Positions 13,099 to 28,430 of a stretch of DNA of 29,030 bases are shown here, piece by piece. The notes under the pieces are model-generated. The model saw only the letters and a list, made by a program, of their open reading frames with translations, made no database searches and was not told the origin of the DNA. How positions within the stretch are numbered: the stretch's first letter is position 1; the number at the start of each line of letters is the position of its first letter. Position numbers and translations under genes: made by a program. Source of the stretch: a virus; IMG/VR virus record IMGVR_UViG_3300008111_000132, positions 1 to 29,030 of that record; one strand, given 5' to 3'.

Positions 13099-13194
13099 AA
13101 TATTGTCTGGCAAATGTCATACGAAGTTTTTGCCAAACAATATTGGCGAGGACCAGTCTGACCCCAGTGTTGTCATACGAATGTTGTTTGGCAA
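13099..13194. repeat. Intergenic inverted repeat 1 (three half-sites)
   Basis: AATATTGTCTGGCAAA (13099-13114) faces TTTGCCAAACAATATT (13129-13144) with one mismatch and a 14-nt spacer that contains GTCATACGAA. A third half-site TTGTTTGGCAA (13184-13194) lies just after another GTCATACGAA (13172). Confidence 0.8.
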
Positions 13195-19169: not shown

Positions 19170-19214
19170 CAAATATACTACGTATAAATTGATAATCCAA
19201 ATTTAATTTGTTAA
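19170..19214 (-). promoter_or_regulatory. Promoter with upstream TTAACA box
   Basis: On the - strand TTAACA (19209-19214), 7 nt, TTTG (19198-19201), 20 nt, TATATTTG (19170-19177). The box-to--7 span of 45 nt is the same in three other promoters. Confidence 0.85.
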
Positions 19215-19253: not shown

Positions 19254-19308
19254 GATATTGTCTGGCAAGTCGAGTAGATCCCGTCCAACCTATTTGCCAA
19301 ACAATATC
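19254..19308. repeat. Intergenic inverted repeat 2
   Basis: GATATTGTCTGGCAA (19254-19268) faces TTGCCAAACAATATC (19294-19308) with one mismatch and a 25-nt spacer. Positions 19282-19315 are identical over 34 nt to 21603-21636. Confidence 0.85.
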
Positions 19309-20735: not shown

Positions 20736-20790
20736 CAAATATATAACATTAATAACTCCAATCCAAATTTATTTTTTTATATTCTGTTAA
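20736..20790 (-). promoter_or_regulatory. Promoter with TTAACA box 10 nt further upstream
   Basis: On the - strand TTAACA (20785-20790), TTTG (20764-20767), 20 nt, TATATTTG (20736-20743). The box-to--7 span is 55 nt, one helical turn longer than the usual 45. The leader to the ParB-like start is about 55 nt. Confidence 0.75.
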
Positions 20791-20860
20791 AATAATGTTA
20801 AGGTAATACAAATGATATCTTGATGACACCAGTCTGATCGCCTGGGCTGCCTGGGCAATG

Positions 20861-20913
20861 TTGTTTGGCAAATTGATCTACTCGAGATCTCCTCACTGTT
20901 AATTGCCAAACAA
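20861..20913. repeat. Intergenic inverted repeat 3
   Basis: TTGTTTGGCAA (20861-20871) and TTGCCAAACAA (20903-20913) match perfectly, with a 31-nt spacer. Confidence 0.85.
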
Positions 20914-21060: not shown

Positions 21061-21267
21061 TCAAATAGTTTTGAATGTACAATAATCTTCTAAACGATCT
21101 AATGAAATTCTACCATAGTTTGTTGAACTATAATAACCTTGAACGGAATACCTTTGTTTCCATTTGTTGAAGGACTCCATCATTTGTTTCTTTGATGGAT
21201 ATGTCCACTTGTCGAACTCAATAGTAAAACCATCGGGTGACAATACTTGATACTTTTTATTTTTCAT
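21061..21267 (-). CDS. Hypothetical protein, 68 aa
   Basis: ATG 21267 overlaps the stop of the DUF1737 gene. The product is basic and Tyr/Trp-rich (KKYQVLSPDGFTIEFDKWTYPSKKQ, then GYYSSTNYGRISLDRLEDYC). I have seen similar short proteins in Bacteroidota phages, without a function. It is translationally coupled to DUF1737. Confidence 0.72.
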   Translation of the reverse strand: MKNKKYQVLSPDGFTIEFDKWTYPSKKQMMESFNKWKQRYSVQGYYSSTNYGRISLDRLEDYCTFKTI

Positions 21268-21466
21268 CTTCTTGTGTTTTAATAATTGTTTGTGAATATT
21301 CAACCTCAATTCGTGTATCCATATGTTGCATACCACTATATCGGTTTTGTCTATGAATTTCGACAACCGAATGTCCACCAAATGGTTTCCATCCTTCTTG
21401 AATAAATTCATTTACTTTTCTTGTCAGTTCTTCGGGAGAACGTGATGATACGATTTTGTATTCCAT
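21257..21466 (-). CDS. DUF1737-family protein, 69 aa
   Basis: The start MEYKIVSSRSPEELTRKVNEFIQEGWKPFGG is the DUF1737 signature (short beta strand, helix, then GWxPxGG), here with the usual small size. These proteins are widespread in phages and bacteria and have no known function. It is the first gene of its unit and is coupled to the 68-aa gene. Confidence 0.85.
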   Translation of the reverse strand: MEYKIVSSRSPEELTRKVNEFIQEGWKPFGGHSVVEIHRQNRYSGMQHMDTRIEVEYSQTIIKTQEDEK

Positions 21467-21484: not shown

Positions 21485-21529
21485 CAAATATACAACGAAT
21501 AAATTAATATTCCAAATAATAATTGTTAA
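21485..21529 (-). promoter_or_regulatory. Promoter with upstream TTAACA box
   Basis: On the - strand TTAACA (21524-21529), TTTG (21513-21516), 20 nt, TATATTTG (21485-21492). Span 45 nt. Confidence 0.85.
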
Positions 21530-21576: not shown

Positions 21577-21629
21577 AATATTGTTTGGCAAGTGAATATG
21601 GTCGTCCAACCTATTTGCCAAACAATATC
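21577..21629. repeat. Intergenic inverted repeat 4
   Basis: Half-sites TTGTTTGGCAA (21581-21591) and TTGCCAAACAA (21615-21625), perfect match, flanked by AATA and TATC, with a 23-nt spacer. A third copy is at 21699-21709. Confidence 0.85.
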
Positions 21630-21649
21630 CTTAGCTCACGGTACCACTC

Positions 21650-21693
21650 GTACCCGAAGTACCCGAAGTACCCGAAGTACCCGAAGTACCCGA
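21650..21693. repeat. Tandem repeat of GTACCCGAA
   Basis: Four full 9-bp units and one of 8 bp in a row. The same unit occurs about twice at 26313-26331. On the - strand the unit reads Thr-Ser-Gly in one frame. Confidence 0.85.
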
Positions 21694-21753
21694 TCTGTTT
21701 GCCAAACAAATTACAATCTGTTGCACATGCGTTGCAGCCAAATTGCACAAAAC

Positions 21754-23894: not shown

Positions 23895-23939
23895 CAAATA
23901 TAAAGATAATAAATGAATAAAACAAATTTATTTTGTTAA
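23895..23939 (-). promoter_or_regulatory. Promoter with upstream TTAACA box
   Basis: On the - strand TTAACA (23934-23939), TTTG (23923-23926), 20 nt, TATATTTG (23895-23902). It drives the four genes to 21805. Confidence 0.85.
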
Positions 23940-23977: not shown

Positions 23978-24042
23978 GATATTGTCTGGCAACCCCTTCC
24001 ACATCTGTCCCCCTGTCATACGAATCTTTGCCAAACAATATC
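23978..24042. repeat. Intergenic inverted repeat 5 with enclosed motif
   Basis: GATATTGTCTGGCAA (23978-23992) faces TTGCCAAACAATATC (24028-24042) with one mismatch. The spacer includes GTCATACGAA (24015-24024). A GCGCATGCGC palindrome follows at 24044-24053. Confidence 0.85.
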
Positions 24043-25089: not shown

Positions 25090-25158
25090 AATGTTGTTTG
25101 GCAAATGTAATACCTCGACTCAAGAAAATTTGTTCCGAACCACTTGCCAAACAATATC
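25090..25158. repeat. Intergenic inverted repeat 6
   Basis: TTGTTTGGCAA (25094-25104) faces TTGCCAAACAA (25144-25154) with a 39-nt spacer. Also present are two copies of AGCAGCGCTTCTGGT (25166-25180, 25198-25212) and a third half-site TTGCCAGACAA (25227-25237) inside ATCTTG-CCAGA-CAAGAT. Confidence 0.85.
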
Positions 25159-26136: not shown

Positions 26137-26181
26137 CAAATATACAACTAATAAAATGATATTCCAAAAAATAATTGTTAA
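26137..26181 (-). promoter_or_regulatory. Promoter with upstream TTAACA box
   Basis: On the - strand TTAACA (26176-26181), TTTG (26165-26168), 20 nt, TATATTTG (26137-26144). Span 45 nt. Confidence 0.85.
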
Positions 26182-26221: not shown

Positions 26222-26285
26222 AATATTGTTTGGCAATTCACACCAAGACATCTTGAGTCTCGATCTACATTTGCCAAACAAGATT
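26222..26285. repeat. Intergenic inverted repeat 7
   Basis: TTGTTTGGCAA (26226-26236) faces TTGCCAAACAA (26271-26281) with a 34-nt spacer. ATCTTGAGTCTC in the spacer recurs at 27652-27663. Two GTACCCGAA units follow at 26313-26331. Confidence 0.85.
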
Positions 26286-26332
26286 CAACATCCGGAGAAC
26301 CTGATGTCCCACTCGTACCCGAAGTACCCGAA

Positions 26333-26363
26333 ATAAAAAACCCCCGATTAATTCGAGGGTTCT
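26333..26363 (-). terminator. Rho-independent terminator overlapping a stop codon
   Basis: On the - strand AACCCTCGA and TCGGGGGTT pair over ATTAA, followed by T6. The stop codon of the 33-aa gene lies in the loop, as in the terminator at 15058. Confidence 0.88.
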
Positions 26364-26795: not shown

Positions 26796-27002
26796 TTAGT
26801 AGTTATCGTGTAATAGTTTCTCTATCTTATCCCACTCTTTCATTGGGAGAGGTTTTAATATTCCTTCATTAACGTGATTAACACAAATCGCCGAACCAAT
26901 ATCATACGGGTCTTGTGTCAGTACATCATAAGTTTCTTCACCATTGATACTAACACGATATACCACAAAATTGGTTTTCTCAACTTCAACTTGATTTTTC
27001 AT
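26796..27002 (-). CDS. Hypothetical protein, 68 aa
   Basis: A small beta-plus-helix protein (EKTNFVVYRVSINGEETYDVLTQDPYDIG, then PMKEWDKIEKLLHDNY). No motif is recognised. It is the first gene behind the array promoter at 27023. Confidence 0.7.
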   Translation of the reverse strand: MKNQVEVEKTNFVVYRVSINGEETYDVLTQDPYDIGSAICVNHVNEGILKPLPMKEWDKIEKLLHDNY

Positions 27003-27022
27003 AGTGGTTTAAGTTTAGGATA

Positions 27023-27067
27023 CAAATATACAATGTATATTGTTAATGTGGTGTTAAAGATCGTTAA
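27023..27067 (-). promoter_or_regulatory. Array promoter: three phased TTAAC boxes, no -33
   Basis: On the - strand TTAACG (27062-27067), TTAACA (27052-27057), TTAACA (27041-27046), 10 nt, TATATTTG (27023-27030). The boxes repeat every 10-11 bp and the -33 TTTG is missing. The nearest box is exactly 10 nt from the -7 in all four array promoters. Confidence 0.75.
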
Positions 27068-27105
27068 AGTTTTGTTATGAAATTTAACCCGTGGTGTGAC
27101 ACGAT

Positions 27106-27116
27106 TTGCCAAACAA
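27106..27116 (-). repeat. Single dispersed half-site
   Basis: TTGTTTGGCAA on the - strand in the spacer of the 26796 unit, without a facing arm. The following CAACTGGAGAC recurs at 27688-27698. Confidence 0.75.
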
Positions 27117-27151
27117 TTTCCAACTGGAGACGACTCAGGAATTCTTTGGAC

Positions 27152-27179
27152 AAAAAAAACCCCTGACTTTCGTCAAGGG
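27152..27179 (-). terminator. Rho-independent terminator with GAAA loop
   Basis: On the - strand CCCTTGAC and GTCAGGGG pair (one wobble) over GAAA, followed by T8. It ends the gene 27203-27511. Confidence 0.9.
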
Positions 27180-27202
27180 TTAGGGGGATTGGGGGGAACT
27201 TG

Positions 27203-27511
27203 TTAGTTCCATTCAAACTTGATTGGTTCGAGGTCTTTAAGTTCGTGGTCATCAAACTCTCCGTCTTCTGGTTCATTGAAGAAACGAAACAACACATTCA
27301 TCTTTTCGTTCTCCCAAAAAACTCGGACTTCGGTTCGGTGTTCGGAAACGTAAAAGTTTTCCAACTTTTCCAATTCCTTAACAAACTTGTTCACATCATC
27401 ATAGTAAACGTCATCAGAAAAATCTTGTCCGTCCACTTCGAAGGTGTCAATGGTTTCACATTGTCCGTCATAGTCAAGTGTGAATTCGAGGTACATTTCA
27501 TTGTAAATCAT
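27203..27511 (-). CDS. Strongly acidic hypothetical protein, 102 aa
   Basis: About 30 of 102 residues are Asp or Glu against some 9 Lys/Arg, with many aromatic residues (DFSDDVYYDDVNKFVKELEKLENFY). The charge density and size recall DNA-mimic inhibitors of nucleases or restriction enzymes (such as Ocr or ArdA), but no sequence match is claimed. It has its own array promoter and terminator. Confidence 0.7.
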   Translation of the reverse strand: MIYNEMYLEFTLDYDGQCETIDTFEVDGQDFSDDVYYDDVNKFVKELEKLENFYVSEHRTEVRVFWENEKMNVLFRFFNEPEDGEFDDHELKDLEPIKFEWN

Positions 27512-27530
27512 AATGTATTAATTTAGAATA

Positions 27531-27586
27531 CAAATATACAATGTATATTGTTAAAAAAATCACAACGATTGTAAAAGTTTTGTTAA
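27531..27586 (-). promoter_or_regulatory. Array promoter, TTAACA boxes, no -33
   Basis: On the - strand TTAACA (27549-27554), then 10 nt, TATATTTG (27531-27538). Further upstream a near match TTTACA (27570-27575) and TTAACA (27581-27586) keep a 10-11 bp rhythm. Confidence 0.7.
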
Positions 27587-27627
27587 GAAGATATACCCTG
27601 AAATCACCCTGATCCGGAATCTTTATG

Positions 27628-27683
27628 TTGTCTGGCAACTCCCGTCAAGAGATCTTGAGTCTCCATCTGTATTTGCCAGACAA
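27628..27683. repeat. Intergenic inverted repeat 8 (compensated pair)
   Basis: TTGTCTGGCAA (27628-27638) faces TTGCCAGACAA (27673-27683). Here the C variant of the left arm is matched by G in the right arm. A second repeat GAGTCTCCA/TGGAGACTC (27657-27665, 27692-27700) overlaps it. Confidence 0.85.
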
Positions 27684-27716
27684 TTTACAACTGGAGACTC
27701 GGTGGTCCAGGTGGAC

Positions 27717-27750
27717 AAAAAAAATCCCTAACCTTACGGGGTTAGGGATT
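27717..27750 (-). terminator. Rho-independent terminator
   Basis: On the - strand AATCCCTAACC and GGTTAGGGATT form a perfect 11-bp stem, followed by a T-run. It ends the gene 27769-27981. Confidence 0.92.
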
Positions 27751-27768
27751 CATACCTAAATTTTCCTT

Positions 27769-27981
27769 CTACTCATTTTCATCACTCCACTTCTCATAGA
27801 CCTCATCAAACAATTCATTTTTGAGTTGGTCAATAGTGTACCCACTTTCGATACACTCTTCTACCCACTCATCACTTTCGGTGATTCCTTCCCAAGACTC
27901 GTGTGGTGGAAGACCCATGTTGGATTCAGTTTGAATGTGGTCGTAAATTCTCTCTTTTACTTCTTCGATTGAAAGTTTCAT
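27769..27981 (-). CDS. Strongly acidic hypothetical protein, 70 aa
   Basis: ATG 27981 (MKLSIEEVKERIYDHI) is used; the longer frame runs into the leader. About 21 of 70 residues are acidic against 5 basic, and it is mostly helical (ESDEWVEECIESGYTIDQLKNELFDEVYEKW). Like its neighbours it could be a DNA-mimic or host-factor inhibitor. Function unknown. Single-gene unit with its own array promoter. Confidence 0.7.
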   Translation of the reverse strand: MKLSIEEVKERIYDHIQTESNMGLPPHESWEGITESDEWVEECIESGYTIDQLKNELFDEVYEKWSDENE

Positions 27982-27999
27982 GTGATTTAATTTAGAATT

Positions 28000-28043
28000 C
28001 AAATATACAATGTATAATGTTAATACAATGTTAAGGTTGTTAA
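28000..28043 (-). promoter_or_regulatory. Array promoter: three phased TTAACA boxes
   Basis: On the - strand TTAACA at 28038-28043, 28029-28034 and 28018-28023, then 10 nt, TATATTTG (28000-28007). The most upstream boxes overlap the end of the 28040-28318 gene. Confidence 0.75.
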
Positions 28044-28318
28044 TTAGTAACGTACTCGTTGTTTTTTGTTACCGACATTCCACTATGAATAAATTCGGTC
28101 AAATGATTAAGGAACTTTTGATACAACTCGTTGTCAAACTGAATTGTGGGTTCTTTGTCTTCCAACTCTACATCATCAAACAAACTCTCGTTTTGGTCTT
28201 GACAATGTGTAAGTACCATGTGATTAAAATCACTACCATTCCACTCGTAGTTAATACAACTATCAATGTGGTTTTCAATAATGTCTTTGATTTCTTTTCT
28301 AATAATTTCGTTTACCAT
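28040..28318 (-). CDS. Hypothetical protein, 92 aa
   Basis: ATG 28318 (MVNEIIRKEIKDIIENHIDSCINYEWNG) is used; the longer frame crosses the promoter. It is soluble, with an acidic middle (QNESLFDDVELEDKEPTIQFDNEL) and a His-containing helix. Not a recognised family. No terminator is seen between it and the promoter of the next gene, so readthrough into 27769 is likely. Confidence 0.7.
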   Translation of the reverse strand: MVNEIIRKEIKDIIENHIDSCINYEWNGSDFNHMVLTHCQDQNESLFDDVELEDKEPTIQFDNELYQKFLNHLTEFIHSGMSVTKNNEYVTN

Positions 28319-28336
28319 AATTTTTAATTTAGGATA

Positions 28337-28371
28337 CAAATATACATTGGATATCGTTAATGTGGTGTTAA
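28337..28371 (-). promoter_or_regulatory. Array promoter: two phased TTAAC boxes
   Basis: On the - strand TTAACA (28366-28371), 5 nt, TTAACG (28355-28360), 10 nt, TATATTTG (28337-28344). No -33 TTTG. Confidence 0.75.
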
Positions 28372-28430
28372 CGTAATACGAATGTTGTGTTAAGAACCTG
28401 ATGACCCCAGAATCCAGGATCGAGATAAAT

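Follow-up and report, generated by a model that had tools for sequence, protein, structure and literature searches.

Phased TTAACA arrays probably let a Bacteroidota virus have several genes switched on by the host phosphate-starvation regulator or a viral look-alike

A virus with Bacteroidota-type promoters probably lets the phosphate-starvation regulator of its host, or a viral look-alike of that regulator, switch several of its genes on. The window, i.e., the whole analyzed stretch of 29,030 nucleotides, is a linear 29-kb virus record. Four promoters on its minus strand have the −7 element TATATTTG, lack TTTG at −33, and carry TTAACA or TTAACG at gap 10, where the gap (or N) is the number of nucleotides separating a box from TATATTTG, counted upstream (Table 1). 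The sequence, spacing, and conservation of these arrays and their association with host phosphate genes are directly observed in the genomes, and suggest, with moderate confidence, that the arrays serve as operators of a response regulator in the OmpR/PhoB family, with host PhoB, the phosphate regulator, as the likeliest candidate.

The layout seen in the first-pass annotation was largely confirmed. None of the four promoters has TTTG at N18–21, the promoter at 28007 having only a bare TTG at N18, and all four have TTAAC(A/G) exactly 10 nt above TATATTTG (TTAACG at 28344, TTAACA at the other three). For every promoter, further boxes had been described some 10 and 20 bp above this one; both are present at two of the four, while the promoter at 28344 has only the first and the one at 27538, with no box at gap 21, only the second. 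The boxes at N10 and N21 cover −22 to −38, thereby overlapping or taking the place of the −33 element, and the arrays form direct repeats with the ~11-bp period of Pho-box promoters. The PhoP box of B. subtilis is likewise of the TTAACA type. Array promoters are not confined to the four rightmost ones of the window: the sister contig L090, which derives from this phage and encodes 100% identical proteins, adds three past the window end, and in each of them the box nearest TATATTTG is at N10 (a degenerate ATAACG in one, TTAACT in another).

Table 1 Promoter elements, associated open reading frames, and repeats in the window
Feature	Coordinates	Strand	Details
Promoter 1, −7 element	28337..28344	-	TATATTTG
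Promoter 1 boxes	28355..28393	-	TTAACG 28355-28360 (gap 10), TTAACA 28366-28371 (gap 21), TTAACA 28388-28393 (gap 43)
Promoter 1, 92-aa ORF	28040..28318	-	first ATG downstream; no Pfam match
Promoter 2, −7 element	28000..28007	-	TATATTTG
Promoter 2 boxes	28018..28043	-	TTAACA 28018-28023 (gap 10), 28029-28034 (gap 21), 28038-28043 (gap 30)
Promoter 2, 70-aa ORF	27769..27981	-	function not assigned
Promoter 3, −7 element	27531..27538	-	TATATTTG
Promoter 3 boxes	27549..27586	-	TTAACA 27549-27554 (gap 10), TTTACA 27570-27575 (gap 31), TTAACA 27581-27586 (gap 42)
Promoter 3, 102-aa ORF	27203..27511	-	no PHROG or Pfam match
Promoter 4, −7 element	27023..27030	-	TATATTTG
Promoter 4 boxes, proximal	27041..27078	-	TTAACA 27041-27046 (gap 10), TTAACA 27052-27057 (gap 21)
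Promoter 4 boxes, distal	27041..27078	-	TTAACG 27062-27067 (gap 31), ATAACA 27073-27078 (gap 42)
Promoter 4, 68-aa ORF	26796..27002	-	function not assigned
TTTG-class promoter	26137..26181	-	TATATTTG, TTTG N20, single TTAACA N31
TTTG-class promoter	23895..23939	-	TTTG N20, TTAACA N31
TTTG-class promoter	21485..21529	-	TTTG N20, TTAACA N31
TTTG-class promoter	20736..20801	-	TTAACA pair (gaps 41, 52), before ParB-like gene
TTTG-class promoter	19170..19214	-	TTTG N20, TTAACA N31
Inverted repeat copies 1-4	13103-13140, 19258-19304, 20861-20913, 21581-21625		
Inverted repeat copies 5-8	23982-24038, 25094-25154, 26226-26281, 27628-27683		

Box placement in the window is clearly non-random. The pattern TTAACR-N10-TATATTTG occurs four times, compared to zero in 300 first-order Markov sequences, while TTAACA overall is not enriched (45 observed vs. 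44 expected). Upstream of 14 TATATTTG sites in the window, 17 TTAACR boxes occur within 70 nt, without exception at gaps 10, 21, 30–31, 41–43, or 52, a common grid of ~10.5 bp. The probability of such on-grid placement is 2.6e-10 assuming independent positions, an assumption weakened by the duplicate-like appearance of some promoters.

Each array promoter lies ~18–20 nt ahead of the start codon of a small open reading frame to which no function was assigned, and no phosphate link is recognizable among the phage genes driven by arrays. The other TATATTTG promoters examined in the block (seven of seven; five in the window and two in L090) have TTTG at N20 together with upstream TTAACA, located at N31 or at 41 and 52, i.e., on the same grid as the arrays. 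The block thus includes two promoter classes sharing one grid, the array class replacing −33 with boxes at N10 and N21, and the TTTG class keeping −33 and placing its box one turn higher. Across nearly all promoters of the block, the leaders between TATATTTG and ATG are strikingly alike (TATTCTAAATTAA-like; e.g., 28319-28336, 27512-27530, and 27003-27022), and are perhaps a signal for translation or transcript start.

The first-pass annotation had proposed a search for the same arrays before host phosphate genes, which gave a positive result. This comparison included 41 Flavobacterium genomes and Bacteroidia sets, which may not represent the phage's own host. Across the Flavobacterium genomes, TTAACA-N5-TTAACA was found 17 times above TAnnTTTG, and the reversed pattern zero times. 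Fifteen of these 17 arrays precede phosphate-transport genes (14 the Pit-accessory gene DUF47/PhoU_div and one PstS), and two are found before other genes. The phosphate-gene arrays sit at gaps 9 or 19–20. While the 14 DUF47 promoters are orthologues and not independent observations, their pairs occupy either gap 9 or gap 19–20, positions that differ by one helical turn and that equal the phage gaps of 10 and 20–21 to within a base. In genome G171, a divergent TonB receptor gene is followed by phoB, phoR, a porin gene, the array, pstS, and further genes that we read by eye as pstC, pstA, pstB, and phoU, a locus resembling the PhoBR cluster of F. johnsoniae (PMC8115612). In genome G001, an array precedes DUF47 and then a Pit-type transporter gene.

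The association extends across the Bacteroidia sets, in which we searched for pairs with at least 11 of 12 matches at 11-bp spacing within 250 nt upstream of selected genes. Such near-perfect pairs were identified for 30 of 85 phosphate-transport genes (PstS, 8/30; Porin_O_P, 10/30; DUF47, 12/25) and for none of 29 RecA genes, with control spacings yielding 0.1–0.3 pairs per set and reverse-strand pairs reaching up to 2–4 per 25–30 phosphate genes. PhoX (PF05787) was also tried as a Pho marker and rejected: none of 25 genes had a pair, which was counted against the reading, and many PF05787 matches may not be phosphatases. An independent scan of genome contigs recovered arrays ahead of PstS and Porin_O_P genes and, for a Clostridiales genome, ahead of a Na/Pi cotransporter gene, along with arrays at genes that have no established phosphate role. 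Based on this association with host phosphate-transport genes, the TTAACA array is very probably a Bacteroidota Pho box, perhaps read not by PhoB alone. It offers a concrete candidate for the phylum, for which our literature search found no paper defining a Pho box; the sequence is the one we infer here. A search on TTAACA in Bacteroidetes promoters returned nothing relevant, and the main text of a study of F. psychrophilum transcription start sites names sigma motifs, with no TTAAC motif in that main text.

Outside of Flavobacterium, arrays are also found before genes for CAP lipoproteins, TonB receptors, an acyltransferase-like protein, and others. Because phosphate genes are thus not its only location, the motif may also be read by another regulator whose box is similar, and each of the four Bacteroidota genomes searched encodes 3–10 PF00486 proteins with similar recognition helices. 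We nevertheless consider it improbable that the phage arrays are read by a host OmpR/PhoB-family regulator that is distinct from PhoB but recognizes a closely similar TTAACA box, given that the unbiased Flavobacterium search placed 15 of 17 arrays at phosphate-transport genes and that the RecA controls had none. Separately, four loci (L180, L210, L217, and L230, one titled Bacteroidales) have a TTAACA pair at gap 10 before a conserved acyltransferase-like gene (NLL.NKLARYEEPQKAKAAGIYPYFRAISSEQD...), which looks like a serine palmitoyltransferase, so that a link between sphingolipid synthesis and the same regulator is possible.

Similar arrays recur in other viral contigs. A scan for TTAACA-N5-TTAACA-N0..30-TATATTTG yielded at least 119 matches, most of them at gaps 10, 20–21, or 30; among the matches listed, gap 21 accounts for 41, gap 30 for 21, gap 20 for 17, gap 10 for 14, and gap 3 for 13, with five or fewer at any other gap. 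The gap-3 peak partly corresponds to the TTTG class, because in 7 of 15 cases among the matches listed a −7-like box follows at N20–21, which indicates that the matched TATATTTG is there the −33 element. Once ascertained sites were removed, TTAACA boxes above TAnnTTTG, among the matches listed, peaked at 20–21 (29), 31–32 (60), 42–43 (29), and 53 (7) over a background mean of ~3.6, whereas host-genome loci showed no TTAACA peaks upstream of TAnnTTTG. Across 20 phage records, 43 arrays were identified vs. zero reversed-pattern controls, a density biased upward because these records were chosen for having an array. The absence of TTTG in viral arrays at gaps 10 and 20–21 was dropped as evidence, being partly mechanical since the boxes occupy those bases.

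A diverged relative of the window phage was reached through this pattern search and local tblastn. Searches with the driven small proteins recovered near-identical contigs and no diverged ones, and tblastn of GP88 and DUF932 against named phages returned distant records only, mostly non-Bacteroidota. The useful relative, G196 (310,542 bases), matches the 14.3–29 kb section of the window and its L090 extension at 232–263 kb, with proteins 38–65% identical and gene order broadly kept, and the window phage is a member of a jumbo-phage group. In G196, 19 of 24 on-grid box sites are located at 239–263 kb, mostly on the minus strand. The conservation on which the first-pass annotation had staked its reading is thus observed in this relative, with in-phase arrays kept at orthologous genes. 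Both phages have a TTAACA array at the ParB-like gene, the G196 orthologue with a TTAACA-N5-TTAACA pair, and both have arrays at a 176-aa gene found in L090 for the window phage. For the gene at 21260-21466, the window phage has TTTG and a box at N31, and the G196 orthologue a box at N10.

Boxes that shift by whole turns yet keep their phase point to a bound protein and argue against mere duplication. Recently duplicated promoter cassettes, with boxes devoid of function, could account for TTAACACCACATTAAC being common to promoters 1 and 4 and for a 50-nt family spanning all four promoters, but the grid recurs in unrelated phages, and in G196 with different flanks, which leaves this explanation a negligible probability. 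We also consider it very improbable that the boxes are generic promoter parts for host sigma-A, either UP-type elements or an alternative −33. TTAACA is indeed also found at N31 above the TTTG promoters of the phage, where an UP-type element could act. An UP element would however lie upstream of −33 and be common at strong host promoters, while the N10 and N21 boxes occupy −22 to −38, the N10 boxes lie downstream of the usual alpha-CTD sites, TTAACA forms no peak above TAnnTTTG in host loci, and RecA promoters lack the pair. Arrays of three to four boxes in phase, and orthologous promoters that differ by whole helical turns, are moreover consistent with a protein oligomer.

The proposal that this PhoB/PhoP-type layout is read by a host or phage regulator is hence supported by arrays at host genes and by in-phase conservation. 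As the first-pass annotation had stated, no OmpR/PhoB-type gene (PF00486) is encoded in the window; none was detected in the two sister contigs either, all of these sequences being fragments. Among the 20 array-bearing phage records, a PF00486 protein is found in three and absent from 17, including records of 131–251 kb, although some of the 17 may be fragments. Host PhoB would be the simplest common reader, because no PF00486 gene was detected in most array-bearing records and the boxes are concentrated in one block.

A phage-encoded activator is nonetheless a serious alternative for the group of the window phage, even if we give it a distinctly smaller chance: a PhoB-type DNA-binding protein of the phage itself would bind the arrays and define a phosphate-independent, phage-timed (middle) class, possibly acting beside host PhoB. 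G196 encodes a 134-aa protein (191088-191492; L413:2088-2492, plus strand) in which Pfam detects a PF00486 domain (E 1.2e-19) but no receiver. It is nearest to a host PhoB-type group including PhoB of G171 and G001, and its recognition helix (RTVDTHIRKLR) resembles the host PhoB-type one (RTIDVHIRKLR). Two other array-bearing phages also encode PF00486 proteins, and a PhoB effector domain without its receiver binds DNA constitutively (PMC4415409). Conversely, the branch of the G196 protein is long and modestly supported (83/79), its gene is ~41–48 kb away from the box cluster, and the window, the two sister contigs, and the 17 records mentioned above, some of them possibly fragments, lack such a gene. 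The regulators of phages G206 and G197 were rejected as array readers since they fall in a different response-regulator clade. The PF00486 proteins of the two other large array-bearing phages (L412:2945-3643, plus strand; L414:1988-2689, minus strand) are ~232 aa long with an N-terminal part lacking a Pfam match, and the L412 gene is ~0.6 kb downstream of a TTAACA array with one gene between. As a bolder and rather unlikely extension, some Bacteroidota jumbo phages could combine a receiver-less PhoB with a TTAACA-array block to run their own Pho-type regulon, possibly including host phosphate-uptake genes, in the absence of any phosphate signal, with host PhoB serving those phages that do not carry the gene.

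If host PhoB is the reader, dimers of the phosphorylated protein would occupy the boxes head-to-tail, from about −22 to −60. As E. coli PhoB does, they would make up for the missing −33 contact by recruiting host sigma-A. The phage genes would then fire, more strongly in phosphate-starved hosts. TTTG promoters with a box at N31 would probably form a second class that depends less on this protein, which would assist them from a site higher up, and the clustering of small one-strand genes probably marks an early or host-takeover region, the early timing being itself presumptive.

Activator-dependent phage promoters without a −35 element are also found in T4, whose middle promoters depend on MotA. 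MotA is however not a member of the OmpR/PhoB family and reads a single 9-bp box near −30, and T4 middle promoters have no tandem TTAACA repeats. Other parallels are the operators of B. subtilis PhoP and E. coli PhoB, in which 11-bp tandem repeats lie over −35 and the activator replaces the −35 contact, Pho boxes being built of tandem 11-nt units (PMC4415409); the window phage differs from these in being a Bacteroidota phage, with a −7/−33 sigma-A promoter and gap classes of 10, 20–21, and 30–31. Examples from the Bacteroidota PHO regulon are the PhoBR operon of F. johnsoniae (PMC8115612) and the pstC promoter of B. fragilis, to which PhoB binds (PMC3547664); in our searches, the motif precedes pstSCAB-phoU, DUF47-pit, and OprP-like genes of the phylum.

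In cyanophages (pstS of P-SSM2, and genes of S-PM2 with Synechococcus PhoBR), TTAA-type repeats are known to place phage genes under host PhoBR, as demonstrated by EMSA, and the S-PM2 genes under PhoBR control are, as here, not obvious phosphate genes (PMC10976474). The same study warns that predicted phage Pho boxes are unreliable without binding tests, and the present case, predicted from sequence, involves another phylum, host, and promoter type (TAnnTTTG), with several promoters in one block and long phased arrays in place of −33. If our reading is correct, phage control by the host phosphate switch would be widespread in phages of Bacteroidota, and built into one gene block instead of just into borrowed phosphate genes. 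Infection by array-bearing phages would then be predicted to depend on host phosphate status, and, should a phage PhoB-like protein read the same boxes, a virus would have taken the output half of a two-component system.

The window also includes recurrent intergenic inverted repeats (TTGTYTGGCAA ... TTGCCARACAA, loops of 16–39 nt; Table 1), for which no Rfam family match was found. Both arms of the copy at 27628-27683 change jointly (C in one arm, G in the other), so that pairing is kept in that copy, and three copies have a mismatch. The same element is found in G196. A tandem 9-bp repeat, CCGAAGTAC, adjoins one of these inverted repeats at 21627-21711, and a short version is present at 26310-26335.
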